Positions 12,132-20,366 of a DNA stretch of 20,366 bases are shown here, piece by piece. The DNA comes from Sandarakinorhabdus sp. (GTDB taxonomy: Bacteria; Pseudomonadota; Alphaproteobacteria; Sphingomonadales; Sphingomonadaceae), in NCBI GenBank assembly GCA_025458465.1, contig JALOSK010000069.1, forward strand, positions 1 to 20,366, given 5' to 3'. How positions within the stretch are numbered: the first letter of the stretch is position 1; each line of letters begins with the position of its first letter. The notes under the pieces were generated by a model. It had not been told where the DNA came from and searched no databases. It worked only from the letters and a program-made list of their open reading frames with translations. The translations under genes and the position numbers were made by a program.

Positions 12132-12652
12132 GCATCCGTCCTGCCCGGCTGGAAGACGCCGAAGCCCTGGCCGCCATCTACGCGCCCGCCGTGCTGCACG
12201 GCACCGCCAGTTTCGAGGTGGAGCCGCCATCGGCGGCCGAAATGGCGGCGCGCCTGAAGAAGGTGCAGGCGCATGGCTGGCCCTGGCTGGTGCACGTGAC
12301 GATGGGCCAGGTCGATGGTTATGCCTATGTCAGCCAGTTCCGCGATCGCCCTGCCTATCGCCACTGCGGCGAGACCAGCGTCTATGTCTCACCCGATGCG
12401 CAGCGCACCGGCATCGGCAATGCGCTGCTGATGGCGGCCACCGATGCCGCCCGCCGGTGCGGCTTCCGGCAGTTGGTGGCGGTGATCGGCAACAGCGAGA
12501 ACGAAGCTTCCATCGGCCTTCATGCCGCCTGCGGGTTCGAACGGGTCGGCCTGTTGACTCAGGTGGGCGAGAAGTTCGGCCGCCGGCTCGACATCGTCAT
12601 CATGCAGCGCAGCCTGGAAGGCCAACCCGCTTCCGCCGCACCCGCCGCCTGA
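12128..12652 (+). CDS. GNAT N-acetyltransferase, phosphinothricin/arsinothricin (PAT/ArsN) type
   Basis: 174 residues. It transfers acetyl from acetyl-CoA to an amino group. The acetyl-CoA pyrophosphate loop is QRTGIGNALL (92-101, Q/R-x-x-G-x-G/A). PAT-like landmarks are IYAPAVLHGTASFE near the N-terminus, YVSQFRDRPAYRHCGETSVY (67-86) and GNSENEASIGLHAACGFERV (121-140). PAT homologues include methionine-sulfone/phosphinothricin acetyltransferases and ArsN1, which detoxifies the arsenic antibiotic arsinothricin. The ATGA overlap with arsC makes the ArsN reading attractive but not proven. The C-terminal 17 codons, after the core fold ends near MQRSL, overlap the convergent beta-helix gene by 53 bp. 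Confidence 0.88.
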   Translation: MSIRPARLEDAEALAAIYAPAVLHGTASFEVEPPSAAEMAARLKKVQAHGWPWLVHVTMGQVDGYAYVSQFRDRPAYRHCGETSVYVSPDAQRTGIGNALLMAATDAARRCGFRQLVAVIGNSENEASIGLHAACGFERVGLLTQVGEKFGRRLDIVIMQRSLEGQPASAAPAA

Positions 12653-13784
12653 GCGCGCTGCCCACCAGTCCGAAGCCCGCCATCAGCATCACCCAGCTCG
12701 CCGGCTCTGGCGCGCTCGTCGCCTGCGCGAGGCCAAAGCTGCGATCGTCCCACTGGCTGCCCACCAGCCCGGCAAGGCTGGGGGTGAAGCTGCTGAACAC
12801 CGGATCCGGCAGCGTGATCCCATGCTGCCCACGCAGGTCGAAATAGGGATTGTCCCCATAGACATTGCCGCTGCCCGACCCGGTGATCTTCATGGCGGCC
12901 GCCCACGGCGCATCGGGCATCACGATCAGCATGTTGTCGGCGAACAGGCTGTCGGTGCAGCCAAGGCATGTGATCGTGTGCGGGCTGGTGGTCGCCGCAT
13001 AATTGCCAACGAACGTGAGTCGGGTGGCGCTGAAATCATCTGGATCGAACGAAACAAAGGCCTGCTGCGGCCCGATGGCCAGATTGTTGAGCAGATAGAT
13101 GTCGGACTGCACCGGATTGGCCGGCACGCTCCACAACTGGATGCAATCGGCATGATAGTCGGGCAAGGGCGCAAAACCGGTACAGCTGTTGTGCGATGCG
13201 ATCAGGCGCTGGCTGTCGAGAATCTTCATGCCGTCCTCGCCGCCATTGGCAAACCGGTTGCGCGTCACCAGGCTGTCGGTCACGCTGCTCAGGATGGTGC
13301 TGTTGCGCAGACCTTCGAACCGGCTGTCGCGCACGGTGATGTGGGATGAACGCAGCACCCTGACCCCGGCCCCCAGGCGATCGCCACTGCCAGAAACCAG
13401 CACATCGCCCAAACTGACATGCGCGCTGTTCTCGATCCTGATGGCATCGCCGGTGCCGGGCGCGCGCCAATCTCCGCCCGAAAAGCGGATGTTCTGCACG
13501 TTGACCATGCGCAGCCCACCGGTGATCGTGGCCGCACTGGCATCAAGCGTGACACCGCCGAAATCACGATTGCGCCACAACATCGCATTGGCGAACACGC
13601 CTTCCATGCGGATCGTGTCGCCGGGCCGGGCCGCCGCCAGCGCGGTGGTCACCGTTTCGGGAGTCATCACCATAACCTGCCCGGCAACAGCCATGCCGGG
13701 CAGCGCCAGGCCCAGAATGGCCGCCTGCACAGCCCGCACGCCCCAGCGCCAAAGTCGCATGCCATCCCGGTTGATGCGCGCCAT
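12600..13784 (-). CDS. Secreted right-handed parallel beta-helix protein with PEP-CTERM anchor
   Basis: 394 residues. A signal peptide (WGVRAVQAAILGLALPGMAV, then AG) is followed by repeated short beta-rungs such as GDAIRIENSAHVSLGDVLVS, VLRSSHITVRDSRFEGL and SVTDSLVTRNRFANG, the pattern of pectate-lyase/NosD-type beta-helices; HADCIQLWS may be active-site-like. Near residue 359, PEPASWVMLMAGFGLVGSAL followed by an Arg cluster is a PEP-CTERM sorting signal of the PEPxxW subtype common in sphingomonads, processed by exosortase. The ATG at 13784 has AAGGA 8 nt upstream and is preferred over the GTG at 13811 or ATG at 13805. It probably acts on, or sits in, extracellular polysaccharide. The Arg-rich tail overlaps the convergent acetyltransferase gene by 53 bp, and 13 residues extend past the usual end of the signal. 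Confidence 0.88.
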   Translation of the reverse strand: MARINRDGMRLWRWGVRAVQAAILGLALPGMAVAGQVMVMTPETVTTALAAARPGDTIRMEGVFANAMLWRNRDFGGVTLDASAATITGGLRMVNVQNIRFSGGDWRAPGTGDAIRIENSAHVSLGDVLVSGSGDRLGAGVRVLRSSHITVRDSRFEGLRNSTILSSVTDSLVTRNRFANGGEDGMKILDSQRLIASHNSCTGFAPLPDYHADCIQLWSVPANPVQSDIYLLNNLAIGPQQAFVSFDPDDFSATRLTFVGNYAATTSPHTITCLGCTDSLFADNMLIVMPDAPWAAAMKITGSGSGNVYGDNPYFDLRGQHGITLPDPVFSSFTPSLAGLVGSQWDDRSFGLAQATSAPEPASWVMLMAGFGLVGSALRRRVRRKRVGLPGCAA

Positions 13785-13978
13785 CCTGCCTGTCCTTCCT
13801 GCCATGCTCACCAGCGGCGGCGCGCCTGGTGCAGGCGGCCAAGCCGGTTAACGGCAGGGCAGTGGCGGGCTTTGCCTCACCGTGCCTAATCACGCGGCAG
13901 ACGGCGCCTCAGGCCGGAGATCGCACGGCGCTGCGGCTGGCGCTTGCATCCGGGGCTGTGGCGGTTCATGGCGCGGGC
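13785..13978. other. Divergent intergenic region, largest gap in the window
   Basis: About 190 bp between the beta-helix gene and the 2OG oxygenase gene. Promoters for both should lie here. I see no convincing -35/-10 pair, RNA gene or conserved small ORF. The oxygenase frame is open upstream to 13829, but that extension has no family features. Confidence 0.5.
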
Positions 13979-14602
13979 ATGGCCATCTCGCTGCTTTTCC
14001 CGACCGCCCTGTGGCAATCACGGCTTGATGATGCGGCCCTGCTTGCGGCGCTGTCGCACAGCTGCCGCAGCCTGTCGCACAGCTGCCGCAGCCTTGCCGA
14101 AGATGACGCGGCCGGCCGGCGCTGGTGCCGCGCGCATCATTATCGCGGCTACACCAGCTATGCCTCCCTGAACGATCTCCCGATGCGCGATCCGGCGTTC
14201 GCAACGCTGGCCCGCTGGCTGACACGGCAGGCCAGCAGCTTCGCCACCGCCGCCCATCTGGATCTGGGCGGCCGCAAGCCGCGGCTGGACAGCCTGTGGG
14301 TGAACATCCTCAAGCCGGGCGGTGGCCACAGCGGCCATATCCACCCGCACAGCATCGTTTCAGGCACGCTCTATGTCGACATTCCCGACGGTGCCGGTGC
14401 CATCCGCTTTGAAGATCCGCGCCTGCCGATGTTCATGCACGCGCCGCCGCGCAGCGCCGATGCCCCCGAAGCGCAGCGCCATTTCGTTCATGTCGCGCCG
14501 GTGGCCGGCACGCTGTTGCTGTGGGAAAGCTGGCTGCGGCACGAAGTGCTGACGAACGGAGCCAAGTCAGAGCGCATCTCGATCAGCTTCAACTTCGCCT
14601 GA
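13979..14602 (+). CDS. 2OG-Fe(II) oxygenase family protein (TIGR02466-like)
   Basis: A 207-residue putative non-haem iron dioxygenase using 2-oxoglutarate. It starts MAISLLFPTALWQSRLDD, typical of the family. The double-stranded beta-helix core shows LDSLWVNILKPGGGHSGHIH then PHSIVSGTLYVDIP, with a His-rich iron-binding segment, FEDPRLP, a distal His in WLRHEVLTNG, and the 2OG-binding Arg in SERISISFNF at the C-terminus. The substrate is unknown; related proteins hydroxylate proteins or small molecules. Residues about 25-38 contain LSHSCRS twice, from an exact 21-bp tandem duplication (14051-14092). The ribosome site is weak; start choice rests on the family N-terminus. Confidence 0.85.
   Translation: MAISLLFPTALWQSRLDDAALLAALSHSCRSLSHSCRSLAEDDAAGRRWCRAHHYRGYTSYASLNDLPMRDPAFATLARWLTRQASSFATAAHLDLGGRKPRLDSLWVNILKPGGGHSGHIHPHSIVSGTLYVDIPDGAGAIRFEDPRLPMFMHAPPRSADAPEAQRHFVHVAPVAGTLLLWESWLRHEVLTNGAKSERISISFNFA
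14051..14092 (+). repeat. Exact 2 x 21-bp tandem duplication inside the oxygenase gene
   Basis: Bases 14051-14071 are repeated without change at 14072-14092. The duplication is in frame and adds seven residues (LSHSCRS) to a helical N-terminal segment. The lack of any difference between the copies implies a recent slippage event. Confidence 0.97.
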
Positions 14603-14635: not shown

Positions 14636-14672
14636 GGCCCGCCGCTCCTGGGTGGGGGTGGAGCGGCGGGCC
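14636..14672 (-). terminator. Strong hairpin terminator for the TonB-dependent receptor gene
   Basis: GGCCCGCCGCTC (14636-14647) and GAGCGGCGGGCC (14661-14672) form a perfect 12-bp GC-rich stem with a 13-nt loop. On the minus strand the stem is followed by GTTTCGTTTC, an imperfect T-rich tract, so it fits Rho-independent termination of the leftward receptor gene, whose stop is at 14746. It may also stop read-through from the convergent oxygenase gene. Confidence 0.75.
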
Positions 14673-14693
14673 GGGCGGGCTGACCCCGCCTCG

Positions 14694-14745: not shown

Positions 14746-17289
14746 TCAGAAACGGAAGCCCAATTCGGCACCGATCACGCGCCGTTGGCCGGGCGAAATG
14801 AACGACCCACCAAATTCGATAGCCGGGATGACCTCGTTCAGCCACAATTTGTCGAGCAGGTTGTTGGCGAAAACGGTCGCGGTCCAGTTCTTGCCCTCGA
14901 TGCCGGCACGCAGGTTGACGACCCCGAACGGATCGCGGCGCGTCACGTCATAGCGCGCGTTGCCCACCACCGCCGGCAGGCCCAGCGCCGATATCGGCAG
15001 CAGGCCGCTGAACAGGGTGGGCTTTTCCTGATCCTGCACGCTGTGGAACCAGGTCGGCCCGGTGAGGCGGTAATCGGCGCGGAAATTGGCCTTCAGGCTG
15101 TCGTTCAGCGGCAGGCTCACCTGCGTGCCAAGGTTCAGCGTGTAATCGGCGGTATAGGGGCTCTTGTTGCCCACCGTATCCGGCCGGCTGGCATTGCGCT
15201 TGATCTCGCTGCCCGTGAGGTTGCCGGAACCGAAGATGGTCCAGCCATCGACGATCTTGGCGGTCAGGTTCAGTTCGCCGCCCCAGATGTCGACACGGTC
15301 GATGTTCGACACCACGCGCAGCAGGCCAAAGCCGCCCACGAAGAATTCGAAGAACTGCATGTCGCGGACCTGGGTGTAATAGCCCGCCAGATCATAGGTG
15401 ATGCGGCCATCGAGCAGGCTGCCCTTGATGCCGGCCTCGAACGCGCTCGATCGTTCCAGGCGATATTGATCGTTGATGGTGACGCCAGCGTTGATGGTGC
15501 CGGGTGTGACACCATCGTTGAAGTTCTGGTTCACGATGGCGGCCGAACCCTGGTTGTTGAAGCCGCCGGCCTTGAAGCCCACGCCCCAGTTGGCGAACAG
15601 CGCCGTATCGTCGTCGGGCTTGAAGGTGAGTGTCACCTTGGGCTGCAGCTGCTTGAAGGTGTTGGAAGCCGGCGGGATCGGGCCGCCCTGCTGGCCGGGG
15701 TTGATCGGGCCGCCCGTGATCGGATCGTTCACGAAGGGCACCAGATTTTCGGCGCGGCGCCGTTCGATGTCATAGCGCAGCGCCACGCCAAGGGTCAGTT
15801 GCTCCACCGGCTTCCAGTCGACGTTGCCGAACGCGGCATAGACATTGGTGCTGAACCGGTCGTTGAACAGCTGGCTGGTGGGATTGCTGCTGCCCGGCGG
15901 GTTGTACAGCGTCGGCAGCACGCCCTGGCCCAGATCGGCGCCCAGGCTCACCCCGGTCTCACGGTCGATATTGAGATAATAGAGACCAACCGACCAGTTG
16001 ATCGGGCCATCCAGTGCGGACGCATAGCGGATTTCGCCGGAGATATCCTTCTGCTTGCGCACCTGCAGCTGGGTGCCATCGCAGGTGGTCGGGCTGTAGG
16101 CGCCGAAGGTCGAACCGGTGGCGGGATCGAAGATGAACGGCACCGGGGTCTGCCCGATGAAGGTGGGCGGCGCCAGCGGATAGCCGGTGAGCGCGGCGGT
16201 CGTGGCAAAGCAGCTGTTGGACGCCGCCACGCTGGCCGGTGTGGCGCCGGGGAAGGTGTAGCGGGCAAAGTCCGCCGAGGTGCCATCGGCGGTGAGCGAC
16301 TGGTCCACATCGCTGTAGAGCAGCCAGCCGGTCAGCTTGCCGGTGCCGAAATCATGCTCGACGCGGGCGGAGGCTTCCCACGTCGTCTGCTCGTTGGTCG
16401 GGCGGATGTTGCTGTAATAACGGAACTGCCGCTCGTTCACATTTTCATAGAAGGCCGGGTTCACCGCCGCGAAATTGGGCAGGTGGAAGCTGGCGTTGAA
16501 GTTGATCGACGCGCCCGACAGGCGGGCATGGCGGCCTTTGATGTCCAGCGTGGTCGCGTCGCCCAGCCTTGCCACCACGCGCCCATCGAAGCCGTAGTTT
16601 TCCTGATCGTCCACCACCTTGGCGTTGTTCAGGAACTCGTTGCGCCAGAAGCCATCCGTGGTCTGATAATTGGCCGAAAGCACCACGCCGATCGTGTCGG
16701 TCACCGGTCCGGCGATGTGGGCAAAGGCCTGCGCCGTGCCCAGTTCGCCATAGTTGGCGCGCACCGCGCCCGACCAGGCGTCGCCGGGCATGATGGTGGA
16801 CATCACGATGGCACCGGCAGCCGCGTTGCGGCCATAGATGGCGCCCTGCGGGCCCTTCAAGACTTCCACCTGGCGCAGCGTCCCCTGCACCTGGTTCAGC
16901 TGGGCGGTGTTGGTCTTCAGGATGCCGTCCACCACCAGCGCCACGCTGGCTTCGGCGTCACGGGCACCGTTGAGGCCGCGGATGTTGATCTGGGTATCGC
17001 CAGCCTCGGCAGTGCCCGACACGATGGTGACGCCCGGGGTCAGCTGCAGCAGTTCCTGGCTGCGGAAGGTGCCGGTGGCGGCCAGCGTTTCGGCCGTGAT
17101 CACCGACACGGTGGCCGGCACGTCGATCAGCCGTTCCGAACCGCGCCGCGCCGTCACCACGATCTCGCCGGTGTCTTCCTCGACGGCTGCGGCCTGCTGG
17201 GCCAGGGCCGGGGATCCGGCAAGCGCCACGAGAGCCAGAGACGCCGACAGCAACAGCTGTGGCCGGACAATGCGCTGCGTGTTGGTCAT
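14746..17289 (-). CDS. TonB-dependent receptor (outer-membrane substrate importer)
   Basis: 847 residues. A signal peptide (QLLLSASLALVALAGSPALA, cleavage near residue 30) is followed by the TonB box GEIVVTARRG (41-50) and a plug domain with VPATVSVITAETL, LLQLTPGVTIVSG, INIRGLNGARDAEASVALVV (101-120) and VEVLKGPQGAIYGRNAAAG. The remainder is a 22-strand-type barrel ending in RVIGAELGFRF with the expected C-terminal aromatic residue. It is the sphingomonad type of receptor that imports organic compounds rather than only iron chelates; no FecA-like signalling extension is seen. It is divergent from the GntR gene and shares its intergenic palindrome, so its ligand is probably the substrate of the neighbouring enzymes. 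The ATG has GGGA 5 nt upstream. Confidence 0.95.
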   Translation of the reverse strand: MTNTQRIVRPQLLLSASLALVALAGSPALAQQAAAVEEDTGEIVVTARRGSERLIDVPATVSVITAETLAATGTFRSQELLQLTPGVTIVSGTAEAGDTQINIRGLNGARDAEASVALVVDGILKTNTAQLNQVQGTLRQVEVLKGPQGAIYGRNAAAGAIVMSTIMPGDAWSGAVRANYGELGTAQAFAHIAGPVTDTIGVVLSANYQTTDGFWRNEFLNNAKVVDDQENYGFDGRVVARLGDATTLDIKGRHARLSGASINFNASFHLPNFAAVNPAFYENVNERQFRYYSNIRPTNEQTTWEASARVEHDFGTGKLTGWLLYSDVDQSLTADGTSADFARYTFPGATPASVAASNSCFATTAALTGYPLAPPTFIGQTPVPFIFDPATGSTFGAYSPTTCDGTQLQVRKQKDISGEIRYASALDGPINWSVGLYYLNIDRETGVSLGADLGQGVLPTLYNPPGSSNPTSQLFNDRFSTNVYAAFGNVDWKPVEQLTLGVALRYDIERRRAENLVPFVNDPITGGPINPGQQGGPIPPASNTFKQLQPKVTLTFKPDDDTALFANWGVGFKAGGFNNQGSAAIVNQNFNDGVTPGTINAGVTINDQYRLERSSAFEAGIKGSLLDGRITYDLAGYYTQVRDMQFFEFFVGGFGLLRVVSNIDRVDIWGGELNLTAKIVDGWTIFGSGNLTGSEIKRNASRPDTVGNKSPYTADYTLNLGTQVSLPLNDSLKANFRADYRLTGPTWFHSVQDQEKPTLFSGLLPISALGLPAVVGNARYDVTRRDPFGVVNLRAGIEGKNWTATVFANNLLDKLWLNEVIPAIEFGGSFISPGQRRVIGAELGFRF

Positions 17290-17343
17290 GTTGGTCCCGC
17301 TCCCGATTCCCCGCCGCCCTTCCCGTTGCGGCCCTGGGCGCTA

Positions 17344-17353
17344 TTGTATACAA
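17344..17353. promoter_or_regulatory. Candidate GntR operator between receptor and regulator genes
   Basis: TTGTATACAA is a perfect 10-bp palindrome, followed by AA. The string TTGTATACAAAA is repeated exactly at the other divergent promoter of this locus (18772-18783). A GTATAC core flanked by T/A is typical of FCD-type GntR regulators such as UxuR. On the minus strand the site includes TACAAT, a possible -10 for the receptor gene, with TTGCAT 15 bp upstream. Binding here could repress both the receptor and the regulator itself. Confidence 0.65.
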
Positions 17354-17458
17354 AAGATGCTGGATGCAAGTTGGCTTTCATCCATCATCACGCCGTTCTG
17401 CCGCAAGGCGGAGGCAGCGTCACAGTTTTGCAACACGCGCGGAAGGAGGCCGGACATC

Positions 17459-18106
17459 ATGACCAACAGCGCCGCCGACCGCGCCTATGCCGAAGTGCGC
17501 GGCCTGATCCTGTCGGGCGATGCCAGCCCGGGGACGCCGCTGCGCGAAGAAGCACTGGCCGATATCGTCGGGGTCTCACGCACACCGATCCGCGAAGCCC
17601 TGCGCCGCCTGGAAGCCGAACTCTACGCCGTGCGCACCCCCAGTGGTCGCTTGGTGGTGGCTGCCTGGGATGTGGACGATGTCGCTGAAATGTTTGCCCT
17701 GCGCGCGATGCTTGAAGGCCATGCCGCCGCCCGCGCTGCCACCCGCATGACGCCTGCGGATCTGGGCGAGCTGAAAGCCTGCAACACCCGGATCGAGCGC
17801 GCAATCGCCGCGCCGGAACCCGACATTGCCGGCTTCCTCGCCGGCAACCGCCAGTTCCACGATCTGATCATCAAGGCCTCGGCGTCGGCGCGTCTTGCCA
17901 CCATGCTGTCGGGACTGGTGGAACAGCCCATCGTGCGACGAACCGCCACACGCTATGACCGCAGCGATCTGGAACGATCGGCGCACGAACACGGGCAGCT
18001 GATGCAGGCCATCTCGGCGCGCGATGGCGAATGGGCGCGATCGGTGATGACAGCGCACATCCGCCGCGCGCTTCACGCGTTTCGCGCCGCAAGCCCTTCA
18101 AAATAA
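17459..18106 (+). CDS. GntR-family transcriptional regulator, FadR/FCD type
   Basis: 215 residues. The N-terminal winged helix-turn-helix shows AYAEVRGLILSGDASPGTPL, REEALADIVGVSRTPIREAL and RRLEAE, the classic GntR signature. The C-terminal all-helical FCD ligand domain follows, with FALRAMLEGHAAARAA, NRQFHDLIIKAS, HEHGQLMQAI and HIRRAL; the three His residues are in positions that often bind a metal used in effector sensing (carboxylic acids in this family). The start ATG has GGAGG 9 nt upstream; the frame is open further upstream without similarity. It is divergent from the TonB receptor and overlaps the isochorismatase-family gene tail to tail by 34 bp. It is probably a local repressor relieved by a pathway intermediate. 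Confidence 0.93.
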   Translation: MTNSAADRAYAEVRGLILSGDASPGTPLREEALADIVGVSRTPIREALRRLEAELYAVRTPSGRLVVAAWDVDDVAEMFALRAMLEGHAAARAATRMTPADLGELKACNTRIERAIAAPEPDIAGFLAGNRQFHDLIIKASASARLATMLSGLVEQPIVRRTATRYDRSDLERSAHEHGQLMQAISARDGEWARSVMTAHIRRALHAFRAASPSK

Positions 18107-18729
18107 ACAATCATGTCTTCAAGGCCAACAATCTCCGCCGTCTTGGCGGCCAGATCGAACAGATTGGCTTCGTGCACGCTGGCCAGCCGGTCGCCCACCG
18201 CCTCGCGCACCACCAGCGGCACATAGCCCAGGCAGATGGCATCCACGGCCGAAGCGCGCACGCACCCCGATGTGGAAAGGCCGCAGATCACCAGCGTGTC
18301 GATGCCGGCGGCCTTCAACTGCGCATCCAGATCGGTGCCGAAAAATGCCGACGGATATTGCTTGGTGATCACCGCCTCCCCCGGCAGCGGCTGCAACGGC
18401 GCCTCGAACGCGCCCAGCGGGCTGCCGCGGTCGAACACCTTCAACGCGGCAATCTTGCGATAAAAGACCCCGCCATCGGCACCGCCCGGTTCATATTCGA
18501 CCCGCGTGTGGAACACGGGCACCCCCTGCCGGCGCGCGACGTCCAGCAGGGCCGCAGCGGCATCGCGGGCCGATTCGACACCCGCACACAGCGGCGATTC
18601 AGGCGCGAAATAGGCCCGCGCGAAATCGATCATCAGCAAGGCGGGCGCATGGCCGGGCACAAGCCCCCGGCCAAAGCCGGCGGCGGCATAATCAGCGCCC
18701 GGATCGGCGGTATCATCGCTCGAATTCAC
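18073..18729 (-). CDS. Isochorismatase-family amidohydrolase (N-carbamoylsarcosine/maleamate amidase-like)
   Basis: 218 residues. A cysteine hydrolase with the triad Asp35 (LLMIDFARAY), Lys123 (VITKQYPSAFFGT) and Cys156 (GLSTSGCVRASAVDA). The Lys-to-Cys spacing of 33 equals that in N-carbamoylsarcosine amidase (Lys144/Cys177), whereas nicotinamidases are spaced more widely; SAFFGT and SGCVRA are shared with maleamate amidohydrolases too. It likely removes ammonia, with or without CO2, from an amide or N-carbamoyl compound. The start is a GTG at 18729 with a purine-rich GGAAGGGAAAGG upstream; no ATG precedes the catalytic Asp. It is divergent from the HMG-CoA-lyase-like gene across the second palindrome, and its 3' end overlaps the regulator gene by 34 bp. 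Confidence 0.9.
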   Translation of the reverse strand: MNSSDDTADPGADYAAAGFGRGLVPGHAPALLMIDFARAYFAPESPLCAGVESARDAAAALLDVARRQGVPVFHTRVEYEPGGADGGVFYRKIAALKVFDRGSPLGAFEAPLQPLPGEAVITKQYPSAFFGTDLDAQLKAAGIDTLVICGLSTSGCVRASAVDAICLGYVPLVVREAVGDRLASVHEANLFDLAAKTAEIVGLEDMIVYFEGLAARNA

Positions 18730-18770
18730 GGCCTTTCCCTTCCACGATGACTATACAGCCGCACGGCAAC

Positions 18771-18782
18771 TTTGTATACAAA
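18771..18782. promoter_or_regulatory. Candidate GntR operator between amidase and lyase genes
   Basis: TTTGTATACAAA is a perfect 12-bp palindrome ending 5 bp before the lyase ATG at 18788. It contains TATACA (18775-18780), which could be the -10 of the rightward promoter with a start point at or next to the ATG; its reverse complement offers the same hexamer leftward. A weaker similar site, CTATACAG (18751-18758), is centred 22 bp away, about two helical turns, on the same face of the DNA. It shares 12 identical bases with the site at 17344. Confidence 0.68.
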
Positions 18783-18787
18783 ATGCC

Positions 18788-19744
18788 ATGTCTGCCACAC
18801 CATTCCCGACCGATCCGGTCTCGATCGTAGAGGTTTCGCCGCGCGATGGGCTGCAAAATGAGCCGAATCTGGTCGAAACGGGCAGCAAACTGGCGCTGAT
18901 CGGGCGTCTGATCGAAATGGGCGCACGCCGTATCGAGGTGGCCAGTTTCGTCAATCCGCGCCGCGTCCCGCAGATGGGCGACGCGGAAGCCGTGATCGCC
19001 GGCCTGCCGGCTGCGCCCGGCGTGCGCTTCATCGGCCTGTGCCTGAACGAACGCGGCGTCGATCGCGCCATCGCCACGCTGGGCGGCGCCCGCCCGCTGG
19101 ATGAAGCCGGCTGCGTGCTGGTGGCCAGCGATACCTTTGGCGTCGTCAACCAGGGCCAGAAGATCGAGGACGGCATCGCCGCGAACAGCGCGATGTTGAA
19201 AAAGGCGCGCACCGCCGGCCTGTTCGCGCAGGTAACGATCAGCGCCGCCTTCGGCTGCCCCTATGAAGGCCCGGTGCCGGCAGACCGCATCGTTGATCTT
19301 GCCAGGCGCATGGCCGATGCCGGCGCCCAGGAAATCGCGCTGGCCGATACGATCGGGGTCGCCGTGCCGGCACAGGTGGGCGATCTCACCGCGCGGGTGA
19401 TCGAAGCCATCGCCCCCATCCCCATCCGCCTGCACCTGCACGACACCCGCGGGCTGGCGCCGGCCAACGCCTGGGCCGGCTATCAGGCCGGTTGCCGCAC
19501 CTTCGATTCGGCGCTGGGCGGCCTGGGTGGCTGCCCGTTCGCGCCGGGCGCCGCCGGCAATGTTGGCACCGAGGAGTTGCTGTATCTGTTCGGCCGGTCC
19601 GGCATTGCCACCGGCTATGATCTCGACACCACGCTGGACGCCAATCGCTGGTTCGCCACCGTCATGGGCCGGGCACTGCCCAGCCGGGCGGGCAAGGCCG
19701 GCGACTTCCAGCCCCGCCCCATTCCAACCGGAGCAAACACGTGA
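18788..19744 (+). CDS. Hydroxymethylglutaryl-CoA lyase family protein
   Basis: 318 residues, a DRE-TIM metallolyase that splits 3-hydroxy-3-methylglutaryl-CoA-like thioesters into acetyl-CoA and a keto product. Active-site residues match human HMG-CoA lyase in identity and spacing: Arg19-Asp20 (SPRDGLQNE), His216 and His218 (HLHDTRG), Cys249 and Asn258 (GLGGCPFAPGAAGNVG). The segment DTFGVVNQGQ differs from the SESFSxxN loop I recall from true HMG-CoA lyases, so the acyl-CoA substrate may differ. No ribosome site precedes the ATG; the operator palindrome is 5 bp upstream, so the mRNA may be leaderless. The TGA overlaps the next gene's start as GTGA. It is probably the carbon-skeleton-cleaving step of the locus. 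Confidence 0.92.
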   Translation: MSATPFPTDPVSIVEVSPRDGLQNEPNLVETGSKLALIGRLIEMGARRIEVASFVNPRRVPQMGDAEAVIAGLPAAPGVRFIGLCLNERGVDRAIATLGGARPLDEAGCVLVASDTFGVVNQGQKIEDGIAANSAMLKKARTAGLFAQVTISAAFGCPYEGPVPADRIVDLARRMADAGAQEIALADTIGVAVPAQVGDLTARVIEAIAPIPIRLHLHDTRGLAPANAWAGYQAGCRTFDSALGGLGGCPFAPGAAGNVGTEELLYLFGRSGIATGYDLDTTLDANRWFATVMGRALPSRAGKAGDFQPRPIPTGANT

Positions 19745-20366
19745 GCTACAGATTGGGCGTCGACGTCGGTGGCACCTTCACCGACCTGATCGTGATCGAC
19801 GAGGCGACGGGCCGCGCCGTGCGCGACAAGGTGCCGTCCACCCCGCATGATCCGTCCGAAGCGGTGATCGCCGGCGCACGGCAACTGGCCGAAAAGGCCG
19901 GCATTTCGGCGGCCGATCTGTCGCTGTTCCTGCACGGCACCACGGTCGCCACCAACGCCGTGCTGGAACACAAGATCGCCCGCGTCGGCCTGATCGTCAC
20001 CGAAGGCTATCGCCACATCCTGCAGATTGCCCGCAGCCTGGTGCCCGGCGGGCTTGCAGCGTGGATCGTGTGGCCCAAGCCCACGCCCATGGCACCGCTG
20101 GAAGCCACAATCGAGGCGCATGAGCGCATCGGTGCCGACGGCGCCATCGTCCGCCCACTGGACGAAGCGGCGCTGCGGCAGAGCCTGAAGCGGCTGGCGG
20201 CAGAGAAGGTGGAGGCCATCACCGTCTGCCTGATGAACAGCTACATGAACGATGCGCACGAACGGCGGATCGCGGAGATCTGCGCCGAGGAACTGCCCGG
20301 CCTGCCGATTTCCCTTTCGGCCGACATCCTGCCCGAAATGCAGGAATATGAACGCGCGCTCACCAC
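19741..20366 (+). CDS. Hydantoinase/oxoprolinase A subunit (HyuA-like), 3' end off the right edge
   Basis: The first 208 residues are visible, and the frame is open to the window end; the full family length is about 680-700. The actin-like ATPase N-terminus YRLGVDVGGTFTDLIVIDE and the block FLHGTTVATNAVLEHKIARV, then GLIVTEGYRHILQIAR, are diagnostic for HyuA / 5-oxoprolinase / N-methylhydantoinase A and acetone-carboxylase-type subunits. These enzymes open cyclic amides such as hydantoins, 5-oxoproline or caprolactam using ATP, usually with a HyuB subunit encoded next, here outside the window. The start GTG at 19741 overlaps the lyase TGA (GTGA) and has GGAG 7 nt upstream. Together with the carbamoylsarcosine-amidase-like gene it suggests ring opening followed by deamidation; the true substrate is unknown. 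Confidence 0.92.
   Translation, partial: MSYRLGVDVGGTFTDLIVIDEATGRAVRDKVPSTPHDPSEAVIAGARQLAEKAGISAADLSLFLHGTTVATNAVLEHKIARVGLIVTEGYRHILQIARSLVPGGLAAWIVWPKPTPMAPLEATIEAHERIGADGAIVRPLDEAALRQSLKRLAAEKVEAITVCLMNSYMNDAHERRIAEICAEELPGLPISLSADILPEMQEYERALT

Follow-up and report, generated by a model that had tools for sequence, protein, structure and literature searches.

The right end of a 20,366-nucleotide stretch of Sandarakinorhabdus sp. DNA (hereafter the window), which is the entire contig JALOSK010000069.1 (C114) of an assembly that is 75.9% complete (374 contigs, about 2.5 Mb), carries genes that we interpret as a GntR-controlled module for uptake and degradation. The encoded pathway would end in a cleavage of the citramalyl-coenzyme A (CoA) type, with a cyclic imide as the most economical substrate, a reading to which we assign a probability of roughly 0.55. 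The original prediction had proposed a catabolic locus of five genes, encoding a TonB-dependent receptor, a GntR regulator, an amidase, an enzyme resembling 3-hydroxy-3-methylglutaryl (HMG)-CoA lyase and HyuA, under one palindrome shared by both divergent promoters. All five genes were confirmed with the expected domains at the right end of the contig, and both copies of the palindrome are perfect:

14746..17289, minus strand: TonB-dependent receptor, 847 amino acids (Pfam PF00593, 8e-35; PF07715, 1e-19)
17344..17353, no strand: operator TTGTATACAA, a perfect palindrome between receptor and regulator
17459..18106, plus strand: GntR-family regulator of the FCD subfamily, 215 amino acids (PF00392, 1e-15; PF07729, 4e-26)
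18073..18729, minus strand: isochorismatase-fold amidase, 218 amino acids (PF00857, 2e-36)
18751..18758, no strand: CTATACAG motif, 13 bases before the lyase-side operator
18772..18781, no strand: operator TTGTATACAA between amidase and lyase, perfect, ending 6 bases before the lyase start codon and containing a -10-like TATACA
18788..19744, plus strand: C-C lyase of the HMG-CoA lyase family (HMGL), 318 amino acids (PF00682, 9e-38; NF004283, 281 bits against a cut-off of 246)
19741..20366, plus strand: HyuA, N-terminal 208 residues (PF05378, 7e-50), the gene being broken off by the contig end

The regulator and amidase genes are convergent and overlap by 34 bases, and the regulator contains both the GntR helix-turn-helix and the FCD domain in Pfam searches. 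Extension to the right, where HyuB and a CoA-ligase or CoA-transferase had been expected, recovered both HyuB and a family III CoA-transferase (CaiB), on contig C210 of the same genome and in the operons of relatives. Contig C210 picks up at HyuA residue 219, followed by genes for an SRPBCC protein, HyuB and CaiB; this would complete the predicted ATP-dependent HyuA/HyuB pair, with the N-terminal part of HyuA in the window and its remainder on C210. We treat the two contigs, which do not overlap, as adjacent because their break points match and the gene order of relatives agrees; alternatively, C210 may be part of a second copy of the locus. The left part of such a copy, with both operators, occupies positions 1-5076 of contig C242 (L002) at 78% DNA identity (85% over 429 bases). 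Its receptor match falls into two pieces meeting near position 430, and the reading frame may be broken there. Since the other genomes of the genus set that possess the GntR gene carry a single one (in two pieces in G017), C242 may represent a second strain in the bin.

Judged from gene order and sequence conservation, receptor, GntR, amidase, HMGL, HyuA, HyuB and CaiB form one conserved unit tied to one operator at both promoters. The gene order in S. limnophila (L040) runs receptor (minus), GntR (plus), amidase (minus), HMGL, HyuA, SRPBCC, HyuB and CaiB. The complete set recurs in six further loci of the closest group (L041, L045, L046, L048, L050, L051), in a Caulobacteraceae metagenome-assembled genome (MAG; L053), in Parasphingopyxis (L054) and Blastomonas (L055), in L121, L122, L123, L127 and L128, and on a Novosphingobium plasmid (L130); three loci at contig ends (L039, L047, L049) show parts of it. 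All five enzymes, without a receptor match, are found in a Ramlibacter MAG (L058, which also has no GntR) and on an Acidiphilium plasmid (L133). Reduced forms occur as well: L052 lacks both amidase and HyuA between its receptor, GntR, HMGL and CaiB genes, no receptor was seen in L126, and L042 and L043 retain HMGL, SRPBCC and CaiB alone, without HyuAB, amidase, receptor or GntR at the locus, which we count in favor of the proposed pathway.

The original prediction would have been weakened by relatives in which receptor and regulator lie apart from the enzymes. Such separation was not found as such, although G038 has its module in two places, with HyuA, HyuB and GntR on C3 at about 334-339 kb and HMGL/CaiB, amidase and receptor on C4 at about 7-13 kb; each of these two parts has its own TTGTATACAA. 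A chance gathering of common families is therefore extremely improbable, contradicted as it is by the conserved set, the shared operator and this split locus, even though each family is common singly and HyuAB occur with an amidase-fold gene but without HMGL and CaiB in L154, L155 and L158.

At the level of the class, a spread sample of 289 genomes was surveyed, with scoring limited to the top 4 or 7 candidates in each. HyuB (E <= 1e-180) was present in 20, HMGL (E <= 1e-70) in 27 and both in 8, and the two genes lay at most 5 kb apart in three genomes besides the source (G204, G234, G330); G060 and G219 hold looser clusters below those E limits. Because few genomes combine HyuB and HMGL nearby, the complete module is, in this sample, chiefly a trait of Sphingomonadales. 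Around HyuB itself, in 7 stretches chosen out of 29 places, an isochorismatase-fold gene was present in 6. An all-against-all comparison of 15 loci (L054, L055, L058, L060, L119-L129), for which a simple rule of codon composition selected the genes, revealed no order-wide family other than those of the module, the racemase-like genes and the SnoaL genes; further families were common to pairs of near relatives or, once, to three loci.

The co-occurrence of these families with the palindrome, likewise anticipated, extends to other Sphingomonadales. The source assembly contains four perfect TTGTATACAA sites, two per locus copy (C114, C242), compared with one occurrence of a reversed control pattern and 0.15 sites per 2.5 Mb predicted from base composition; dinucleotide shuffles of each intergenic region yielded TTGTATACAA in 0 of 5000. 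We then considered 23 genomes as the genus set (G000-G022, with G000 the source genome; the grouping seems to include Polymorphobacter glacialis). Sorting sites by comparing their coordinates with those of GntR and HMGL assigned 32 of 36 perfect sites to the locus and 4 to other places, whereas the reversed control totaled 12. A GntR ortholog (E <= 1e-20) was present in 18 of the 23, and all 18 have at least one perfect site at the locus; the five genomes without GntR (G003, G006, G011, G019, G021) have no perfect site anywhere. These proportions (18/18 versus 0/5) are not independent trials, because the genomes are related. Among 14 order-level genomes, six possess GntR, five of them with a perfect site at the module. 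The motif is not exclusive to this regulator, as perfect sites also occur in five of the eight order-level genomes that lack it.

On the receptor/regulator side, the operator keeps its position in relatives, L039, L040 and L046 differing by one mismatch each, and this conservation predicts a palindromic operator at the regulator's own promoter. On the lyase side, 19 loci were aligned, and in 17 of them the distance from the end of the site to the start codon is 4-6 bases (8 in L055, 49 in L122). This position leaves little room for a ribosome-binding site and, with the same layout in relatives, suggests that the HMGL message is leaderless. The heptamer CTATACA, within CTATACAG, lies exactly 13 bases upstream of the operator (last letter counted) in 16 of 19 loci, carries one change in L047 and L122, and is absent from L055. 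The resulting distance of 17 bases from TATACA to TATACA is a promoter-like spacing. Accordingly, CTATACAG may be read as the -35 region of the HMGL promoter, as a second, weak regulator site there, or as the -10 element of the divergent gene. The last was our first reading and was demoted to one of three; it is disfavored because the motif also stands in L044, L052 and L057, which have no divergent gene at that place. Away from the locus, a perfect TTGTATACAA in G004 (L146:4798) stands shortly upstream of a different TonB-dependent receptor gene.

Comparison with solved structures placed HyuA, HyuB and the amidase nearest to enzymes of creatinine degradation, a likeness that had been suspected from the window. 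HyuA and HyuB, scored as their S. limnophila orthologs, matched N-methylhydantoinase 7hk5 best (465 bits for HyuA, 218 for HyuB against a chain of the same structure). HyuA scored lower against 5-oxoprolinase (385 bits), acetophenone carboxylase (293) and acetone carboxylase (250), and HyuB reached 218 and 216 bits against hydrolases versus 126 and 46 against carboxylases. Among NCBIfam models, HyuA scored 529 with caprolactamase versus 303 with ApcC, both below cut-off. By these scores, the pair resembles amide hydrolases more than carboxylases. The shared superfamily and the carboxylase matches just given would suit an acetone- or acetophenone-type carboxylase, but the hydrolases score higher, and in the L040 operon no acetone-carboxylase gamma or further subunit was recognized with Pfam or NCBIfam, the small protein between HyuA and HyuB there being SRPBCC-like. 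We therefore rejected this reading as very improbable. The SRPBCC-like protein was not found in several loci; where present (L149:1455-1895, L040:12987-13526) it has a signal-like start, and in L042 and L043 it adjoins HMGL and CaiB.

The amidase scored 141 bits against N-carbamoylsarcosine amidohydrolase 26st, 134 against 3ot4, which we take to be a maleamate amidase, and 110 against 1nba. Its Asp, Lys and TSGC are invariant in 30 of 30 distinct sequences, including that of the window, and presumably form, with the TSGC cysteine, the catalytic triad. With creatinine-pathway enzymes as the nearest solved structures, a hydantoin substrate has to be weighed: HyuAB would open a 5-substituted or N-methylated hydantoin, the amidase would remove the carbamoyl group, and CaiB and the lyase would handle a special carbon skeleton. 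A gene of the Asp/Glu/hydantoin-racemase family in the module of at least six relatives would suit this route. We nevertheless regard it as rather unlikely, as it would lead to an amino acid and the annotated module genes include no aminotransferase, the amidase is almost equally close to 3ot4, and the racemase-family protein (e.g., L054:6679-7413) has Thr and Ser at the places of both catalytic cysteines in all six aligned sequences. Together with SnoaL-type genes, this family joins the module in L051, L054, L055, L121, L126, L128 and L148; a racemase or maleate isomerase was rejected as a core part, since only some relatives have the gene and both cysteines are missing.

The receptor is 83-87% identical across six loci (L040, L041, L044, L045, L046, L050), and its identity drops to 32% in L122 and to 32-33% in G038, G044 and G234. 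Its sequence proved unusable for predicting the substrate, because the matches to the two solved relatives are confined to an N-terminal stretch (residues 37-200 and 44-172).

The lyase of the window, whose closest named matches are from Sandarakinorhabdus, retains six residues (Arg41, Asp42, His233, His235, Cys266 and Asn275 in human numbering) that we take to be catalytic or metal-binding. At two further positions, Thr150 and Ala184 replace Tyr167 and Ser201 of the human, B. subtilis and P. aeruginosa structures, residues that presumably sit by the acyl group; the Coxiella entry 6nds, named HMG-CoA lyase, has neither Tyr167 nor Ser201. Across 95 lyase sequences, a non-random sample gathered by likeness to the window's lyase or fetched because of it, Tyr with Ser occurs in 45 and Thr with Ala in 31. 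Sequences with coverage below 80% were dropped from the residue alignment and those below 70% from the set of 95 (L057 and L061 fall out); the 31 of 95 were used instead of the 59 Thr/Ala rows of the residue alignment, which include duplicates.

In genomic context, CaiB lies within 9 kb of none of 46 Tyr167 lyases versus 39 of 49 non-Tyr lyases. Three of these 39 neighbors are weak matches (L059, L076, L087; 29-31% identity), and 33 of the 46 Tyr sequences have at least 3 kb on both sides. We presume the Tyr type to be the leucine-pathway enzyme. The phylogenetic tree, in which group labels were set by us and some branches are long, revealed that the LeuCD-CaiB lyases L131 and L132 form one 36-member clade with the HyuAB-associated sequences (99/88), nested in a 38-member clade (100/96) outside which all Tyr sequences fall. 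Proteins of the LeuC/LeuD, PEP-mutase/ICL, MmgE/PrpD and HpcH/HpaI families, whose substrates are branched di- and tricarboxylates of the hydroxy or unsaturated kind, adjoin related HyuAB-amidase or CaiB-HMGL clusters. Based on the CaiB context, the two changed residues and the tree grouping, the enzyme is probably not the usual HMG-CoA lyase, and a citramalate-type hydroxydicarboxylate is indicated. In this respect the original prediction is probably to be revised.

Pairing of an HMGL-fold lyase with a family III CoA-transferase, as for (R)-citramalyl-CoA lyase, is seen through CaiB on C210 and in the operons of relatives. The models nearest to CaiB, succinate-glutarate CoA-transferase (260 bits, cut-off 750) and succinyl-CoA:mesaconate CoA-transferase, match far below their cut-offs, and it scored 198 bits against succinate-hydroxymethylglutarate CoA-transferase 9br7. 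The latter match, the succinate-glutarate model and the NF004283 score above cut-off are what would favor a true HMG end, in which CaiB makes HMG-CoA, the lyase yields acetyl-CoA and acetoacetate, and the substrate is an amide or imide of the 3-hydroxy-3-methylglutaryl type. We consider this end unlikely given the change of Tyr167 and Ser201 to Thr and Ala and the position of the lyase among CaiB-side lyases in the tree. Moreover, the NF004283 score does not discriminate, because a second HMGL of the same genome (C172), which carries Gly at the position of Tyr167 and Ser at that of Ser201, lies in a LeuD-HMGL-CaiB cluster and also exceeds the cut-off. In this C172 cluster (L138, 239-3413), perhaps a hydratase-fed counterpart, the LeuD-like frame also matches DUF559.

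For the preferred citramalyl-type end, we infer substrate and biochemistry from sequence as follows. The FCD regulator would repress by sitting on TTGTATACAA, which holds the -10-like element, and would release on binding the substrate or an intermediate. The receptor would import the substrate, HyuA and HyuB would hydrolyze a cyclic amide bond using ATP, and the isochorismatase-fold amidase, of maleamate or carbamoylsarcosine type, would remove the freed carboxamide or ureido nitrogen. CaiB would then transfer CoA, probably from succinyl-CoA, to the resulting hydroxydicarboxylate, and the HMGL-family enzyme would cleave the thioester into acetyl-CoA and an oxoacid. The lyase substrate would be not HMG-CoA but a 2-hydroxy-2-alkylsuccinyl-type thioester, in the simplest case R-citramalyl-CoA, which would yield acetyl-CoA and pyruvate; the pathway substrate would be a cyclic imide of such a hydroxydicarboxylic acid. 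PMC6689899 equates S at citramalyl with R at HMG and uses the name S-HMG-CoA lyases for the TIM-barrel family; by this correspondence, an HMGL-family enzyme would fit R-citramalyl-CoA.

A more specific version is tentative: the imide might derive from a branched hydroxydicarboxylic or alkylmaleic acid, as in linear tetrapyrrole fragments (hematinic-acid-type imides), and would pass through receptor uptake, ATP-dependent opening by HyuAB, maleamate-type hydrolysis of the half-amide, CoA transfer and citramalyl-CoA-type cleavage. The link to tetrapyrroles is a guess. Under this version, the pathway would be one of a wider set in which HyuAB and such an amidase accompany varied C-C lyases (HMGL, PEP-mutase/ICL, HpcH/HpaI) and dehydratases.

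Several observations weigh against the proposed pathway and its regulation. Its weak point is that no recognized hydratase lies in the core module. The hydroxyl would then be present in the substrate from the start, involve a protein of the racemase-like, SnoaL or SRPBCC kind, or come from an enzyme encoded elsewhere. The creatinine-pathway matches of HyuAB and amidase suit a hydantoin. For the lyase, the NCBIfam label is hydroxymethylglutaryl-CoA lyase, above cut-off, 10 of the 49 non-Tyr lyases have no nearby CaiB (two of them, L001 and L002, from contig ends), and the CaiB-side lyases L134 and L135, the latter with LeuCD, fall outside the clade; the family link to the Chloroflexus (R)-citramalyl-CoA lyase and CoA-transferase, which we take to belong to the HMGL and CaiB families, is an assumption. 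The module is also uneven: no amidase match was found in L044, L052, L057, L126 and L150, the HMGL ortholog stands alone in L056, L140 and L141 (with a 25% receptor match in L140), and no CaiB at E <= 1e-120 was found in G006 or G021. As to the operator, G037 possesses GntR and the enzymes yet no perfect site, and the perfect sites away from the locus in the genus set come from four genomes (G002, G004, G005, G012).

Compared with known systems, the module shares parts with several. Creatinine/N-methylhydantoin degradation likewise proceeds by ring opening and then an isochorismatase-fold amidase; that route is not known to include a receptor, GntR, CaiB or HMGL-family lyase, all of which the module has. 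Relative to the hyuA-hyuB-hyuC-hyuE operon of hydantoin utilization, HyuA, HyuB and the racemase-family gene of some relatives are held in common; the module has an isochorismatase-fold amidase at the place of hyuC and a racemase relative without the cysteine pair, and adds CaiB and the lyase. Caprolactamase CapAB provides the best NCBIfam models for HyuA and HyuB, at scores far below the cut-offs (529 and 219 versus 1000).

On the side of C-C cleavage, the Chloroflexus system, likened to the module through its presumed enzyme families, is not known to include HyuAB, amidase or receptor. The pair of citramalyl-CoA lyase and citramalate CoA-transferase, which PMC8307300 names as EC 4.1.3.46 and 2.8.3.20, likewise combines a CoA-transferase with a lyase to give acetyl-CoA and an oxoacid. 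The LeuCD-HMGL-CaiB plasmid clusters of Novosphingobium pentaromativorans, Methylobacterium aquaticum and Cupriavidus necator have the CaiB-HMGL pair in common with the module and a LeuCD-type hydratase in place of HyuAB and amidase; the lyases of the first two are in the 36-member clade, and that of C. necator is L135. In the C172 cluster of the same genome a LeuD-like gene adjoins HMGL and CaiB; this lyase is not part of the tree. The Acidiphilium plasmid L133 has both LeuCD and HyuAB with amidase. Its stretch 3968-20879 comprises HyuAB, amidase, CaiB, HMGL, LeuCD and two proteins of the polysaccharide-deacetylase family that weakly resemble allantoinase PuuE, perhaps a fuller pathway.

Auxin degradation by the iad locus was also considered, as it too involves the opening of a nitrogen ring and the loss of an acetyl unit, and lactam opening with acetyl loss would fit HyuAB-CaiB-HMGL. 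We rejected it because other enzymes carry out that route: section 5 of PMC12633357 describes a Rieske oxygenase, an acyl-CoA synthase and thiolase-type enzymes. An excerpt of PMC9613470 makes no mention of hydantoin, oxoprolinase, lyase or CoA-transferase, and PMC11630574 contains none of six terms.

At the left edge of the module, the receptor gene converges with a 2OG-Fe(II) oxygenase-like gene (13829-14602), and a GC-rich inverted repeat noted by eye between their ends (window positions 14636-14677) is perhaps a terminator. Positions 12600-13811 encode a beta-helix protein with a PEP-CTERM sorting signal, relatives of which (32-45% identical) occur near the locus in several genomes.

Collectively, the data describe a real, conserved catabolic module that is apparently undescribed and combines known enzyme families in a new way; literature searches found no paper on the combination of HyuAB/amidase with CaiB and an HMGL-type lyase. 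A search with the HMGL protein gave, among the 120 matches listed of 7999 (8000 candidates scored), only names like hydroxymethylglutaryl-CoA lyase, which were of no help in assigning a function. If our interpretation is right, the group so annotated probably has a different substrate, and the module would link HyuAB/amidase systems with CaiB/HMGL-type lyase systems. TTGTATACAA is a short sequence with few occurrences in these genomes, which makes the regulon directly testable, and Sphingomonadales would gain a testable gene set for the degradation of cyclic imides or related rings.

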